A DNA stretch of 64,000 bases, from contig NZ_JASJPW010000001.1 of NCBI RefSeq assembly GCF_030052995.1, positions 2,594,001 through 2,658,000 of the forward strand. The letters are read 5' to 3'. Both the position numbers and the translations under genes were made by a program. Of this stretch, positions 56,151-64,000 are shown piece by piece; the stretch's first letter is position 1, and each line of letters begins with the position of its first letter. The notes below the pieces were generated by a model. That model was not told the DNA's origin and did no database searches. It was given only the letters and a program-made list of their open reading frames with translations. The stretch is from Gemmobacter sp. 24YEA27 (GTDB lineage: Bacteria > Pseudomonadota > Alphaproteobacteria > Rhodobacterales > Rhodobacteraceae).

Positions 56151-57167
56151 TCAGATCCGAGCGCCACGCAGCACCTGCCCCGCCTCGTGGCCCAGCTCCT
56201 GCATCACCATCCGGAAGGTTTCACCATAAGCGGTGAACAGCGCCTGGTTCAGCGCCTTGCCGCTCTCGCTTTTGCTGAAGACGAGGAACTGCTCCAGCTC
56301 GGCGTCACTGAGCGGTGCATAGGCCTCGGTCATGAAGGCCAGAAGCCAGGAGGTGGTGCTGGCCCGGATCTCAGCCTCCTGCGCCCAGACCTGGGCCATC
56401 CGGTCCGCCTCCGGCAAGCGTTGCTCCGGCGGCAGCGTGGCCGTGAGTGCCTCGTTGAAAGCCGCCGATCCGGTGAGACCCGAAGCGACATTCCCTTCGA
56501 TCAGATCCGAGGCTTCGATCAGATTGCGGATCAGCTTAAGCCTTGGCGCACGCGCATCGCGCAGCTTGCCGGCGGCGACCTCGGCGGCCTCCTTGCTGTC
56601 CGGATCCAGCAGTACCTCGCGTGCGGCGATCTCGCGCGCCACAATGGCCTTGCCGGTCGGGGAGGAAAAGAACGCAACCGCATCCGCCAGAACCTCAGGC
56701 TTGCCTGCCAGCGCCTCGCTCAGCGCCTGCGAGAACCGCGTCCGCAGAACGTCCGGCTGATAGATCCGCGCCACACTGGCCTGCCAGCGAAGACCACCTT
56801 TGCCCCCGAGCAGGCCCTGATCGAGTCCTTCGCCATATCCGTGACCCTCGCGCGCGATCACCCCGAACAGCGCGCCGAGACCGAGGCTTTCCTCAAGCGC
56901 CGCCATACTCGCGCCCTGAGTGGCCGCGTCGTCTCCGCTGGCCTGGTCTGCAGGCACCTGTCCGGTGGGGGCCTTTTCGGTGGGGGCCTCTTCGGTGCCC
57001 GCCGCGTCACGCCCCTCGGCAAGCGCCGCAAAATCGGCTCCCGGCATGGGCAAGATCGCAATCAGCGCGGCGAAAGCGGCCACTTGCGGCCAGCTTCGGG
57101 ACGGATAAGCCAGACCCTGGTCCGGATGCCTGACCGCCAGACCTCGCCTTCCCTCATTGCGCTGCAT
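56151..57167 (-). CDS. DUF2059-containing membrane-anchored/secreted protein
   Basis: 338 residues from ATG at 57167. An N-terminal hydrophobic segment (WPQVAAFAALIAILPMPG, about 27-44) is followed by an acidic/Pro-Thr-rich linker with a short tandem repeat (TEKAPTGQVPADQ) and then two DUF2059-like helical regions (about 130-235 and 235-335: AVAFFSSPTGKAIVAREI and QFLVFSKSESGKALNQALF). DUF2059 proteins are envelope-associated with unknown function. The frame is open to 57227. Confidence 0.78.
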   Translation of the reverse strand: MQRNEGRRGLAVRHPDQGLAYPSRSWPQVAAFAALIAILPMPGADFAALAEGRDAAGTEEAPTEKAPTGQVPADQASGDDAATQGASMAALEESLGLGALFGVIAREGHGYGEGLDQGLLGGKGGLRWQASVARIYQPDVLRTRFSQALSEALAGKPEVLADAVAFFSSPTGKAIVAREIAAREVLLDPDSKEAAEVAAGKLRDARAPRLKLIRNLIEASDLIEGNVASGLTGSAAFNEALTATLPPEQRLPEADRMAQVWAQEAEIRASTTSWLLAFMTEAYAPLSDAELEQFLVFSKSESGKALNQALFTAYGETFRMVMQELGHEAGQVLRGARI

Positions 57168-57448: not shown

Positions 57449-58840
<1,392 letters not shown>

Positions 58841-59024: not shown

Positions 59025-59516
59025 TTATGGATTCGGGGGTGAGGCTTTTTCCAGCCGATCAACCGCCTTGGGGTCGGAAGCCTCCTTGTGAAGCGTGTCC
59101 CAATCGTCAGGCGGATTGCCGTCATCCAGCATCCCCTTGAAGACCCTGTAAGCGTCCGTTTTGGAGCCGTAGGTCCGCAAGCTGTTTTCGTCGTTCACCC
59201 AGGCGAAGATGATGACCTTGCTGGTGCTGCTGTAGCGGAAAAAGAGCCGGAAACGACCATTGCCGAACTTGGCGCGAAACCAGTGCTTGCGGTCATCGCC
59301 AAGAGTCGCGCCTTGCCGATAGATGGATGCTGTCGGGTCCGATGGCACATTGACGGTGACGAGCTGGACCAGGGACGCAAGCAATTTGGAGTCGGCGGAT
59401 TTCTGATAATCGTCCGGTTTCTTCGCTTTGAGCGTATCGACTGCCTCGATCAGCTTTTCCCACTGGTCGAGAAAGAGAGGGTGTGCGAGGACGGTCCAGC
59501 CATTGATCGTCGGCAT
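59025..59516 (-). CDS. yhaV: Type II toxin YhaV (ribonuclease)
   Basis: 163 residues from MPTINGWTVLAHPLFLDQWEKL. The later KHWFRAKFGNGRFRLFFRYSS and WVNDENSLRTYGSKTDAYRVF, then GNPPDDW, are the conserved RelE-like YhaV core. YhaV cleaves RNA in association with translation in E. coli. It starts one base after the antitoxin stop, the standard antitoxin-first order. Located in the tRNA-Ser island, consistent with stabilising the element. Confidence 0.9.
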   Translation of the reverse strand: MPTINGWTVLAHPLFLDQWEKLIEAVDTLKAKKPDDYQKSADSKLLASLVQLVTVNVPSDPTASIYRQGATLGDDRKHWFRAKFGNGRFRLFFRYSSTSKVIIFAWVNDENSLRTYGSKTDAYRVFKGMLDDGNPPDDWDTLHKEASDPKAVDRLEKASPPNP

Positions 59517-59517
59517 A

Positions 59518-59853
59518 TCAGATCGAAACGTTCCCCTCGATCTCGGCATCGAGATCGACCGTCATGCCGGCTGTCAGGGCAACAGCCCGGTCGAGCAAGG
59601 ATTGCGGGAACGGCAGAACAGATTTCTCGGGGTGCTTCGCCATGTCCTGCGCGAGAAATTCGAGAAAACGGTCGATCACGGGATCGGCGGTTTCTTCAAT
59701 CTCGGCCTTCTGGACATAGACGCGGTGCTGCTCATCAATAAGAAAAGCAATGCGTCCGCCATAGTCAACGCCCAAAGCTTGCCGAACGCTCTTGGGAACG
59801 GTCGTCTGGCCCTTGGCGGTGATGGTGCTTTCTTCTTTCAGCAGCGCGCCCAT
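59518..59853 (-). CDS. prlF: Type II antitoxin PrlF
   Basis: 111 residues with an N-terminal SpoVT/AbrB swapped-hairpin DNA-binding domain (ESTITAKGQTTVPKSVRQALGV, about 8-50) and an acidic C-terminal half likely to bind the toxin (ETADPVIDRFLEFLAQDMAKH). PrlF neutralises YhaV and represses the operon. An AT-rich sequence around 59880-59915 (AAGGAAACTTCCTTACCTT) forms a dyad and may be its operator. Confidence 0.9.
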   Translation of the reverse strand: MGALLKEESTITAKGQTTVPKSVRQALGVDYGGRIAFLIDEQHRVYVQKAEIEETADPVIDRFLEFLAQDMAKHPEKSVLPFPQSLLDRAVALTAGMTVDLDAEIEGNVSI

Positions 59854-59929: not shown

Positions 59930-60346
59930 CTATCGGGCGGGTTGGCCGACACCTGCCGCCAACCGTGCCAAAGCGGAGAAGCCGACGAATCCGCCACCAG
60001 CAATGCAGAAGACTTGCCGCCAGATGTCGGACGGCACGGCCTCCTTGGTGATGCCATAGACCAGCGCATAGCCCGCGACGGCGGCGGGCGCGGCGAAGAT
60101 CAGCGCGACGATCAGGCGAATGACAGGCGAGCGGATCGTCTCGAACAGCCCGGCCAGAATGCCGAACGCAACGCCTGCGGAGAGCAGGCCGACCAGTCCC
60201 GCTCCGATCAGGCCCGAGCCGGTCTCGTAGGCGAATTGGGCTGCGGCCAGCCCGACGAAAAAGGGCAGCGCGTAGACAGCGAGATTGTAGGCGAGGACGC
60301 AGAGAAGCGCGACCAGTGCAACGCTCATGAACATGACGGCGACCAT
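59930..60346 (-). CDS. Small integral membrane protein of the island
   Basis: 138 residues with four hydrophobic segments: about 2-20, 26-42, 45-68 and 78-98, plus a weaker one near 112-132. No charged catalytic motif. Similar small membrane proteins are common beside partition and transfer genes in alphaproteobacterial integrative elements; I do not recognise a named family. It lies between the toxin-antitoxin pair and the ParB-like gene on the same strand. Confidence 0.68.
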   Translation of the reverse strand: MVAVMFMSVALVALLCVLAYNLAVYALPFFVGLAAAQFAYETGSGLIGAGLVGLLSAGVAFGILAGLFETIRSPVIRLIVALIFAAPAAVAGYALVYGITKEAVPSDIWRQVFCIAGGGFVGFSALARLAAGVGQPAR

Positions 60347-60528: not shown

Positions 60529-62031
60529 TCATTCCGCCGCGACAGCGAAAGGCTCGTCCTCCATGGCGGGAGCTTCCTGCTGCTCGTCCACCGCCAGCCA
60601 TGCGGGACGCTCAGTGCGCAGCACGGGCGGAAGCCAGCCGGTTCCGGCCAGAAGTTGTTCGGCGGCTTCGGCCATTTCCTGCTTCTTCTTGTCCGCGATC
60701 TGCTCGGCGGCTTCGTCGCCAAGCGCCTCCCGCACGGCGGCAAGGATTTGCGCCTTGGTCACGCGCCCGAAATAGGCCCGGACGGTCGGCGTCCAATGCG
60801 CCGTCATGTCGAGCGCAACCGCCGTCGCCAGCCTGTCCGCCGTTGCATGGGCGTGGCGCTTGTTCTGCTCCCATGGCAGCTTGAGGGCGTTGACGGTCTG
60901 CGCGGCGCAATGGGCGAACAGCGCCATGACGCTGGCATGGTCTAGACCGGCGATGAAGCCCCAAAGATCGGCCACGTCGCGGGGCATGTCCGCCGCCCAT
61001 CCGGCATGACGATCCGCCAGCGCCTTCGCCGCCGCCGTGTCCTCGATGCCATCCGCATGTCCGCCAAGGCTGGCGCTGAGCGGGCGGATTTCGAGGGCGT
61101 GGGCATCCCCTCCACCGCGATAGAAGGTCTGCGCGGCAAGCGCATGGGTGACGGCGATCAACGCCATGTCCGGCTGCTCGCCAAGAGCGAGACGCAGGGC
61201 AAGGGTGCGATGCGCGGTCAGGTCGCGGATGAGCGAATCCGATAGGGGTTTGCCGTCTTCCTCCGCTTCCTCATCCTCGGCGTCGAGCGCGGAAACGTGG
61301 TTCCCGTCCTCGTCATACGCACCGTCTTCCCCAATGATTTCGCCATCGCCATTGACGCGCACCCCGTCGATGACGGTTTCACCATCCGCGCTTTCATCTT
61401 CCTCCGGTGCCGGGGCCTCGTCCTCGGGGTGGATGAAACCGCGCTCGATCCGGGCTTCCCCATCATGGTTCAGAACCACGAAAACGCCGCCTCGCGTGAT
61501 CTCGTCGGGATCGTAGGCATAGCGTAGCCCGTCGATACGCTCGATCTCGGCTTCAAGCTCCGCAAGGCGCTGATCCACTTCGGGCGGGAGGTCCACGTCT
61601 GCGTCCTCCCATTCCGCCGACAGGCGCTCATGTTCCTCCTGCGCGGCGCCGTAGGCGGCTTCCTGTTCCTCGGAAAGCTCCACCATCTGCGGATAGGTGC
61701 GCCGCATGCCGTGAGCGTGGGGCCAGTCGATATAGGCCTGAACCCATTTCCACCCCTCTGCCTCCTGAACCTCGGCGGCGGTCCTTTCCAGCCTATCCAG
61801 CGCAAGCCGGTCCAGCAGCGCGGCGTCCTCGTAGAAGCCGCCGCGATCCTCGGTGAAAAGGTCACGGATGATATTGCCGCCCGCCTCGGTATAGGCTTCC
61901 GCGCCGACGAACACCGCCCGCCGATCCGAAACCGCCACATTGCTCGCGGTCAGGTCGCGGCGAATGATCCACGGCTCCTTGTTGTGGGACAGGTTTTCAT
62001 ATCCGGTGCTTCCGGTGCAGGAGAATGGCAT
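60529..62031 (-). pseudogene. ParB/RepB-family partition-like protein, 5' part missing
   Basis: About 490 residues matching the middle and C-terminal part of the large ParB-like proteins of alphaproteobacterial integrative elements: RRAVFVGAEAYTEAGGNIIRD, LLDRLALDRLERTA, EEQEAAYGAAQEEHERLSAE, a long acidic region (about 205-285) and a C-terminal conserved domain (FGRVTKAQILAAVREALGDE). The N-terminal ParB nuclease/HTH domain (about 200-250 residues) is absent. Family-like sequence stops near 61990 and the following DNA belongs to a different gene on the other strand. Confidence 0.78.
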
Positions 62032-62035
62032 TCAA

Positions 62036-63331
62036 ATGCATCCTGCCCAACTGATTGGCGAAACTAGGGCCGGTGAAGACGACTATTCGGACGTCTACCG
62101 GGCGATGATATCCATATATGAAGGAAGGGATTTGTTCTCCGACGAGGTCGCTTTCCACGCTGCCCTCCAGCGTCACGTTCGTCGCGGCATCGCGACACTG
62201 GCAGCAGAATGGACGCCAGGCGCGGACTTCAATCGCTACCTGTTGCAGGATCTATTCACCGAAGGGCCAGAAAGTAGTGAACTAGCCGGTGAGTTAGGCG
62301 ATCAGGTCACGCGCATCATGGCCGAAATGGGGGTCGATGGCCGGTTGATCCATACCGCGCAAGGTCCTCGACTTACCCGTTTCACCTTCCAGCTAACGGG
62401 ACTGGATGATCTTGGCAGGTTAAAGAGAGGCGAGGAAAAGCTCGCTTTCGGACTGGGTTTGGCCGATCGCGCAGCTACAGTTTCTAGCGCGGCCGTAGAG
62501 CGTCAGGTGTGGATCGATATTCCTCGTCCTACGGGTCAGTGGCGGGCAGTGGACTGGAGCGAGCTCAAACCGGCACTTCGTTCCCAGCAAGCCAATACCA
62601 TGAGTCTGCCCGTCTGCCTCGGTACCGATGTTTTAGGCGTGCCCATGCTGATCGACCTTGCCGCTGCGCCACATCTGTTCCTGGGTGGAACCACGGGCAG
62701 TGGCAAGAGTATGACTCTGCACGGAATTCTTTTATCGTTGCTTTCGGGGCGAGACGTACCGGACCTTTTGCTAGTCGATCCCAAGGCAGTGGAGTTTACG
62801 CCTTATAAGACGCTCAAGAATCTGGTTACGGGCGAGATTATCACTTCGGTCAGCGACGCCCTTCGCGTTCTAAACGACCTCATCAAGGAGATGAACCAGC
62901 GCCAAGAGATTTTCACGAAGCTTGAAGTGCGGGATTTTGCCGAGGCCCAAGCGGCAGGTTCCGACTTGAAGCGCATCGTGGCTGTGATCGATGAGCTGGG
63001 CGATCTCTTCATGCAGTCTGATGAGATCGAGGTCCCGTTAATCCGGTTAGCCGCGAAGGCACGATCTGCTGGTATCCATCTGGTCTTGGCAACGCAACGC
63101 CCTGAGGCGGCGACCTTTCCTGGCATGTTGCGCTCGAACGTGCCTAGCCGAGTCGCGCTCACCGTTCAGAAGGGATCCGAATCTCGGATCATCCTCGACG
63201 ATGGAGGAGCCGAGAAGCTGCTCGGCAAGGGCGATATGCTCGTAAAATTTAGTGGGCAGCCTGTCGTGCGTGCTCATGGTCCTCGAATACAGTCCTCGGA
63301 CATTATCGGAGCGGTGGGTAAAAATGCCTGA
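62036..63331 (+). CDS. Soluble FtsK/SpoIIIE-like DNA translocase
   Basis: 431 residues. An N-terminal region of about 80 residues (DDYSDVYRAMISIYEGRD) has no recognised fold. It is followed by an FtsK alpha-like part (GPRLTRFTFQLTGLDDLGRL) and the motor with Walker A GGTTGSGKSMTLHGI near residue 222, Walker B VAVIDELGDLFM, the FtsK hallmark LATQRPEAATFPGMLRSNVPSR and LDDGGAEKLLGKGDMLV. No membrane segments and no C-terminal gamma (KOPS) domain, so it is not the division translocase. GGAGAA lies ahead of the ATG at 62036. The next ATPase gene overlaps it by eight bases. Confidence 0.88.
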   Translation: MHPAQLIGETRAGEDDYSDVYRAMISIYEGRDLFSDEVAFHAALQRHVRRGIATLAAEWTPGADFNRYLLQDLFTEGPESSELAGELGDQVTRIMAEMGVDGRLIHTAQGPRLTRFTFQLTGLDDLGRLKRGEEKLAFGLGLADRAATVSSAAVERQVWIDIPRPTGQWRAVDWSELKPALRSQQANTMSLPVCLGTDVLGVPMLIDLAAAPHLFLGGTTGSGKSMTLHGILLSLLSGRDVPDLLLVDPKAVEFTPYKTLKNLVTGEIITSVSDALRVLNDLIKEMNQRQEIFTKLEVRDFAEAQAAGSDLKRIVAVIDELGDLFMQSDEIEVPLIRLAAKARSAGIHLVLATQRPEAATFPGMLRSNVPSRVALTVQKGSESRIILDDGGAEKLLGKGDMLVKFSGQPVVRAHGPRIQSSDIIGAVGKNA

Positions 63332-64000
63332 CGTAATCATCGGCGAATGGAAACTGCTCAGAGTCACCCTAGAGGGCCTTGGGCCATTCCGCAACGGTCG
63401 GCAGACCTTCGACATCACCGGTGCTGATACCGATGACCTTGAGGCGGGAACCACGGACGCTGCCAGCATGTATATGATCTTGGCGGCGAACGGATTCGGC
63501 AAGACCACGGTGCTCGAGGCGATCTTCGGTTTGTACGGGTTGATGAATACTGTACCGCAGGGAAAATTCGCGGACGGCACGTTCAACGGACGTGCTCAGA
63601 TCGACATTAGGGTGTCTTTGGTCATCGACGGTGTCTCTCAAACCATGGTGCTTTCGCTTTGGACCGGCACGGAGCAGCCTGTAGACCCGCTTTCGTCGTT
63701 GGATTTGGAGAACTTGGCGGTAACCGATATTTGGGCAAAACTGGGGCTCGACAGCAGTGGTGCAATCGCTGCAGGCTCAAACGAGTACGGTATCCGCCTG
63801 TTTCACACCATAAAGCAGGGTTTAGATGCCCCACCGACCGCACTTTTCGGTTTGTCGCAGAACCTGCCTTCGCTGCTGTACTTCCCCGCCGATCGCCGCG
63901 TGGTTGCGCCCAGCAGCCATGAGGCGGTGACCAGACCGACCGACTGGGGGTATCAGCCCGCGCTGCATCTCGGCTCTGACGGACCCGACTGGGGCTCGTC
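63324..64000 (+). CDS. RecF/SMC-like AAA ATPase, 3' end outside window
   Basis: 225 residues visible. The start at 63324 overlaps the end of the FtsK-like gene. Seen: VTLEGLGPFRNGRQTFDI (the opening strand of RecF/OLD/AAA_23-type ATPases), Walker A AANGFGKTTVLEAIFGLYG near residue 54, and NLPSLLYFPADRRVVAP near 190, resembling the region before the signature motif in defence-type ABC ATPases. Walker B and signature lie beyond the window. GC content is lower than the host core. Function not assigned; with its partner it may form a DNA-sensing or defence module. Confidence 0.8.
   Translation, partial: MPDVIIGEWKLLRVTLEGLGPFRNGRQTFDITGADTDDLEAGTTDAASMYMILAANGFGKTTVLEAIFGLYGLMNTVPQGKFADGTFNGRAQIDIRVSLVIDGVSQTMVLSLWTGTEQPVDPLSSLDLENLAVTDIWAKLGLDSSGAIAAGSNEYGIRLFHTIKQGLDAPPTALFGLSQNLPSLLYFPADRRVVAPSSHEAVTRPTDWGYQPALHLGSDGPDWGS

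Follow-up and report, generated by a model that had tools for sequence, protein, structure and literature searches.

The pair of ATPase genes at the right end of the window (the whole 64,000-nucleotide stretch of Gemmobacter DNA analysed here) is probably the orphaned, front-truncated tail of a particular type of Dnd phosphorothioation (PT) cluster. The identity of the parts and the truncation itself can be stated with high confidence. The pair had been described in a first-pass annotation as possibly the first half of an unrecognised defence or mobilisation operon. Relatives with DndC and DndD upstream illustrate that it is the back end instead, broken at the front; the operon is of a defence type, as had been suggested, and the mobilisation part of the claim falls with the same neighbourhoods.

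The gene pair and a third gene

The first gene (62036..63331, + strand) encodes an FtsK-type DNA motor of 431 residues from the ATG at 62036, a truncated remnant of a DndE-FtsK fusion that measures about 495 residues in close relatives. It matches the Pfam family FtsK_SpoIIIE (E = 1.3e-35), with no FtsK_gamma match in Pfam at E<=0.1 and no membrane segment by eye, which bears out the earlier description of a soluble motor free of both. The eight-base overlap reported for the second gene also agrees with the ORF coordinates. This gene starts at the ATG at 63324 on the + strand, fills the window to 64000 and runs on to window-equivalent 64481. (Positions beyond 64000 are window-equivalents, read from L002, a 40-kb sequence starting at window position 57001.) Its product of 385 residues is an AriA/PtuA-like (OLD-type) ABC ATPase. 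In Pfam it matches AAA_21 (52.2 bits, E = 1.3e-13), AAA_15 at 26 bits and AAA_23 at E = 1.5e-4, the last below cut-off; in PADLOC the best match is PtuA (61.7 bits) with AriA close behind.

Beyond the window lies a further operon gene with a nuclease fold, of the kind that the first-pass annotation had proposed looking for. This third gene (window-equivalent 64481-65368, L002 7481-8368, + strand) overlaps the ATPase gene by one base and encodes an AriB-like TOPRIM-fold protein of 295 residues. By sequence it matches no Pfam family at E<=1, hence not DUF4435 either, and no AriB model in PADLOC, and a PDB sequence search with protein A2 gave no match. Foldseek ranks AriB first (E = 1.1e-3, TM 0.44). 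The protein has the AriB fold with the TOPRIM metal-binding residues, including a glutamate at position 26 (E26), and in this feature it agrees with PARIS. Further on, the next ORF of at least 100 residues (L002 8997-9986) is doubtful; a TrbL piece comes after it, followed by a tRNA-Ser.

The junction at the front of the motor gene

The best FtsK relative, P0147, is a protein of 495 residues that is 95% identical to the window motor and carries the DndE domain PF08870 at residues 5-122 (30.6 bits, cut-off 25). The window protein has no PF08870 match at E<=0.1. When the ORF that starts at 61940 is compared with P0147, 36 of 40 residues match from its Y21 onwards (a tyrosine at nt 62000, P0147 residue 53), against 3 of 13 before nt 62000, a part through which BLASTP stretches the alignment to P0147 residue 40. 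Clear homology begins only at nt ~62000, so the window copy lacks about 52 residues from the start of the fusion protein, and with them almost half of the DndE domain. What remains of the domain lies at 62000..62209 (+).

The other side of the junction (61999..62001, accurate to a few bases) belongs to a plasmid ParB-family gene (60529..62031, - strand) that lacks its first ~203 residues and whose first 10 codons are FtsK-side DNA. Residue 11 of this ParB (nt 62001) pairs with residue 204 in the alignment to a 697-residue M. ciceri ParB, and the other nine ParB matches listed begin at residue 15. DndE-FtsK homology ends on one side of nt ~62000 and plasmid ParB homology on the other, and therefore two 5'-truncated genes meet here head to head. 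We also considered the ParB-like gene as a candidate DndB and rejected it: wherever its listed matches carry an annotation, they are partition proteins of plasmid ParB/RepB/Spo0J type.

Two truncated genes meeting so sharply could also be the product of an assembly that had joined a plasmid ParB contig to the tail of a Dnd cluster. However, the junction is internal to a contig of 3.5 Mb, at a site that holds cargo in a same-genus genome too. A chimera made from the same genome would, moreover, leave its DndC, DndD and DndE genes behind, and none is found elsewhere in the assembly. We regard such a chimera as very unlikely.

Intact relatives of the cluster

The gene order in intact relatives is (DndA), DndC, a DndD/PbeC-like ABC ATPase, DndE-FtsK, an AriA-like ATPase and an AriB-like TOPRIM protein. 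A longer version is found on M. amorphae pM0123d, where cysteine desulfurase, DndC, a DndD-like protein, DndE, a small protein, a second ABC ATPase, DndE-FtsK, the ATPase and the third protein follow one another, with a DGQHR protein on the opposite strand; the Asticcacaulis AC466 cluster resembles it. Magnetococcales (L007) and other genomes of the phylum have a shorter form, which runs DndC, ABC ATPase, DndE-FtsK, ATPase, TOPRIM.

A search of the phylum with P0147 gave matches in 11 of 398 genomes, one of them the window's own. All ten non-self loci were opened for the neighbourhood counts (L128 and L007 are one contig). A DndD-like gene lies upstream in 10/10, two of these being cut by a contig end, and the ATPase and TOPRIM pair lies downstream of the fusion in 9/10, counting L125, where the ATPase is two ORFs. 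The tenth, L132, has neither gene within the 1.7 kb remaining to its contig end. DndC is next upstream in seven of the eight loci whose contig reaches that far (L124 is without it, and in L125 it is a piece of 210 residues).

The profile scores of L007 point the same way. DndC scores 353.8 bits (NCBIfam cut-off 290.4), DndD 268.4 (245.85) and the DndE within the FtsK fusion 31.9 (25), so that DndC, DndD and DndE are carried together and intact relatives of this kind are members of Dnd. PADLOC ranks PbeC first for the L007 ABC ATPase (385.1 bits); its top-ranked models for the ATPase and the third protein are AriA and AriB, respectively. Scores elsewhere vary: both DndD-like proteins of L005 fall under the NCBIfam cut-off, and among nine FtsK relatives scanned for DndE five lie above the cut-off of 25 bits, three below it (L131 24.8, L133 23.5 and L135 21.4 bits) and one, L137, has no match. 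DUF4435 is detected at E<=1 in 7 of 18 members of the third-protein family (best 4e-06), and the third protein of L105 has no PADLOC AriB match at E<=1e-5.

Six plasmid records hold the FtsK at E<=1e-60. The ATPase is present in two of them, L105, which is whole, and L104, where DndC, FtsK and the ATPase are broken. Three other opened plasmid loci have DndC, a small protein, DndD and FtsK, then TusA or an IS, with no ATPase/TOPRIM pair.

Some further observations concern the composition of these clusters. A small sulfur carrier gene annotated as TusA-family follows the FtsK genes of L135 (8947-10703) and L136 (8887-10649), and the gene at L133 12447-12731, after the TOPRIM gene, is one that we take from its motif to be TusA-family as well; such systems may include a sulfur relay protein. 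The alphaproteobacterial loci L005 and L105 have two successive ABC ATPase/DndE pairs, and it is in the second that DndE and FtsK are fused. Since the short form contains no other DndE than the fused one, the latter may take part in modification itself. In Brevundimonas UBA6550 a remnant (L008 9001-10473) consists of an ATPase gene that is truncated and frame-broken and, behind it, a TOPRIM gene that is open, with no FtsK match at E<=1e-3 in 18.6 kb.

These neighbourhoods also bear on the proposal that the pair belongs to conjugation or plasmid partition, with FtsK as coupling protein or segregation motor. ParB and TrbL pieces do lie near the window pair. Both are broken, though, and ParB touches FtsK only at the junction; relatives of the pair adjoin DndC/DndD and not the ICE transfer loci that the first-pass annotation had held out as the alternative setting, and the motor's relatives carry DndE. 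We reject a transfer or partition pair on these grounds, and consider it the least probable of the readings weighed here.

Missing modification partners

The host genome (G000) is 98.56% complete. DndC (TIGR03183) has no match in it; the other five of the six genomes or records searched matched, four above cut-off. Nor is there a match to DndE (PF08870), or to the DndD/PbeC-like ABC ATPase with the L005 protein as query at E<=1e-5, in searches that were both positive in G420 and G422. The window genome is thus not a member of Dnd phosphorothioation, in that DndC, DndE and the DndD/CxC ABC ATPase are undetectable at this sensitivity. With these modification genes undetectable and nearly half of DndE lost, the copy could at most work as a PARIS-like pair plus a bare motor; otherwise it would be decaying.

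All three window-operon genes are open, with no stop codon or frameshift, and for this reason they do not look like old decay. Their catalytic motifs are intact, a GGAG stands 12 nt before the ATG at 62036 (by eye), and the closest listed relatives, which share an assembly by an indirect proxy, are 95% identical for FtsK and 98% for the third protein. PARIS itself needs just AriA and AriB (PMC9122126). All of this would suit a living remnant, re-purposed as a stand-alone PARIS-like abortive-infection module that is triggered by phage proteins instead of DNA marks. Against this, the operon has lost the promoter and leader that were its own, and the Brevundimonas remnant, where an open TOPRIM gene sits beside a truncated, frame-broken ATPase, is a case of decay. 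On balance we judge such re-purposing unlikely.

Island and integration hotspot

The pair lies in an integration hotspot, as we read the region from 57544 to window-equivalent 67993. Its borders are tRNA-Ser(CGA) on the left (57449..57538, +) and tRNA-Ser(TGA) on the right (window-equivalent 68001-68088, -). In a comparison with a genome of the same genus (G008), conservation of the flanks ends at 57543 and resumes at window-equivalent 67994 (93% and 92%), and both tRNA-Ser borders are common to the two genomes. Between the borders there are 10,450 bases here and 10,771 in G008 (L153 2151-12921), with no mutual BLASTN match at 1e-10. Inspection of the G008 cargo by eye shows a transposase, a relaxase-like protein and an ATPase that resembles a coupling protein. 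This comparison with one same-genus genome maps the island within which the pair had been placed. The GC content claimed for the pair is indeed lower, at 57.1% in 62001-64000 against 58.8-66.9% in other 2-kb windows; elsewhere in the island the GC content is not reduced.

The island is rich in fragments. On its left, a serine recombinase remnant (57506..58840, -) retains Recombinase and zinc-ribbon domains with no resolvase catalytic domain at E<=0.1. It is followed by a YhaV toxin/PrlF antitoxin pair (59025-59853, -; Pfam E = 1.1e-58 and 1.1e-24) and, between that pair and the ParB remnant, by a protein of 138 residues (59930-60346, -) that has no Pfam match at E<=0.1 and looks membrane-bound by eye. 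On the right, the TrbL piece (Pfam E = 8.6e-40) continues into recombinase DNA. The 3' ends of the recombinase form an inverted repeat of 609 nt at 86% identity (L002 509-1117 and 10422-11030), one copy at each tRNA-Ser, which points to two integration events or to an inversion between two islands.

Truncated neighbours such as ParB, the TrbL piece and the recombinase remnant with its inverted copy are what one would expect if the three genes were a dead passenger, brought in by a plasmid-derived island, unexpressed and drifting to loss. The different cargo of this hotspot in one genome of the same genus fits as well. The lack of any stop codon or frameshift in the three genes speaks against it, and we put this outcome at just short of an even chance.

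Distribution

The DndE-FtsK protein has 800 relatives at E<=1e-60 among 8000 candidates scored. Using an indirect proxy for a shared assembly, 44 of the best 120 ATPases (of 136) match one of the best 120 FtsKs (of 800), against a mean of 0.4 and a maximum of 4 in a control with shifted values. By the same proxy 17 of 26 third proteins share an assembly with either listed set, a count that stands without a control.

Several searches speak against a wide spread. The third protein was found in one of 60 relatives and the ATPase at E<=1e-30 in one of 385 genomes of the class, in each case only the window's own. DndE-FtsK at E<=1e-60 gave 0/397 and 0/296 in genomes of two other orders, draws made without a positive control. 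A contig scan with the ATPase as query covered the best 80 of 298 relatives using two peptide patterns; these are common to many ATPases, and consequently only L005-L008 among the 80 loci are clear family members by identity and coverage. None of 18 loci from a viral scan exceeds 37% identity over a short segment. In phage records the ATPase has no match at E<=1e-5, and none of 69 FtsK matches covers 80% of the query.

Relation to known systems

DndE-FtsK fusions next to a DndD-related ABC ATPase have been described in a subset of Dnd systems, as 'clade-3' HerA/FtsK (Rakesh, Aravind and Krishnan 2024, PMC10853773). The family studied here has the same fusion and, in intact relatives, the same ABC ATPase neighbour, while the window copy is without nearly half of the DndE domain. 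A term search of the main text of PMC10853773 finds 'toprim' twice (D5-helicase/primase fusions and a reference) and 'PARIS' never.

The likeness to PARIS lies in an ABC ATPase followed by an AriB-fold protein, with a glutamate at position 26 in both; E26A in AriB is the inactive Toprim mutant (PMC12409363). The intact relatives differ in that they are not free-standing and an FtsK gene precedes the pair. The published detection rule asks for AAA_21 at >=27 or AAA_15 at >=32 bits and an adjacent PF14491 at >=27 bits (PMC9122126). The window ATPase passes its part on AAA_21 (52.2 bits), whereas the third gene fails the DUF4435 profile. Auxiliary or backup modules of TOPRIM-linked OLD-ABC type recruited by BREX (PMC12839542) are similar, as a PARIS-like pair on a modification-based system; here, however, the pair sits directly after DndE-FtsK in Dnd clusters.

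DndFGH/SspFGH also pair an FtsK-class motor with a P-loop partner, and the window motor aligns to residues 1536-1758 of the 1766-residue SspH. The motors here (431-520 residues) have no long DndH/SspH body, the effector is AriB-like and not an REase, and no DndF or DndG was noticed around the relatives. We reject membership, as just the motor is common (431 residues against the ~1700 of DndH/SspH). PbeABCD resembles the L007 cluster in its ABC ATPase, which scores best against PbeC and also passes the DndD cut-off in this one intact relative scanned; it differs in that DndE is fused to FtsK here and the effector is an AriA/AriB-like pair. Septu (PtuA/PtuB) was rejected too: the ATPase matches PtuA, and the next gene has an AriB fold without an HNH match.

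The combination of DndE-FtsK with an AriA/AriB pair was not found in the open-access passages of PMC10853773, PMC9122126, PMC12839542, PMC12707154, PMC8649781 and PMC9009780, and it may be drawn in supplements or in an earlier ABC-ATPase classification. That no named system fits the pair, as first claimed, is correct for this combination, as far as those papers go. It does not hold for the parts, which have names (Dnd/Pbe upstream in relatives, PARIS AriA/AriB), so the match to a named system that was to refute the first-pass claim exists in part. What was already known is DndE-FtsK beside DndD; the attached AriA/AriB pair is new as far as the open-access papers searched show. Joining the published arrangement to a pair present in 9/10 loci of the phylum suggests that intact members of the family are PT systems into which a PARIS-type effector is built.

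A working model

The likeliest model, by analogy with cited systems, would be a marked-DNA surveillance complex of the ABC ATPase and DndE-FtsK that controls an AriA/AriB-type effector. Three precedents guide it. SspFGH damages unmarked DNA and is toxic in the absence of PT; both SspH and DndH resemble FtsK (PMC8092258). DndI cleaves DNA that lacks marks, and marks release it (PMC11662687). On recognising an anti-restriction protein, AriA frees the tRNase AriB (PMC12839542, PMC12707154, PMC9122126).

In the intact system DndC would mark the host DNA with sulfur. Scanning of the DNA would fall to the DndD/DndE pair while the fused FtsK motor travels along it, and sulfur marks would make the motor release self DNA. 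If the motor ran along DNA without marks, or if an anti-restriction protein of a phage interfered, this might switch the AriA-like ATPase, which would free the AriB-like nuclease; RNA would be cut (tRNA in PARIS) and the cell would stop. We offer this full sequence tentatively, since all its activities are borrowed from the cited systems and from gene order. The broader idea, of a compact PT immune system in which DndE-FtsK is both scanner and motor and a hard-wired PARIS-type AriA/AriB killing arm stops translation on unmarked DNA, is a possibility that we hold a little more tentatively still.

It has been argued that DndABCDE is often uncoupled from DndFGH and has its real effectors in other nucleases (PMC10853773). 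The DndE-FtsK/AriA/AriB tail would be one such effector, joining Dnd and PARIS, which have been studied separately. The intact cluster is a five-gene operon, small enough to test. If the compact PT system is real, the window would be a natural knock-out of the sensing half with the killing half left unharmed. The window copy adds a putative effector pair that has survived the loss of modification genes by which it might be restrained, in contrast to SspFGH, which harms PT-lacking cells when unrestrained (PMC8092258).
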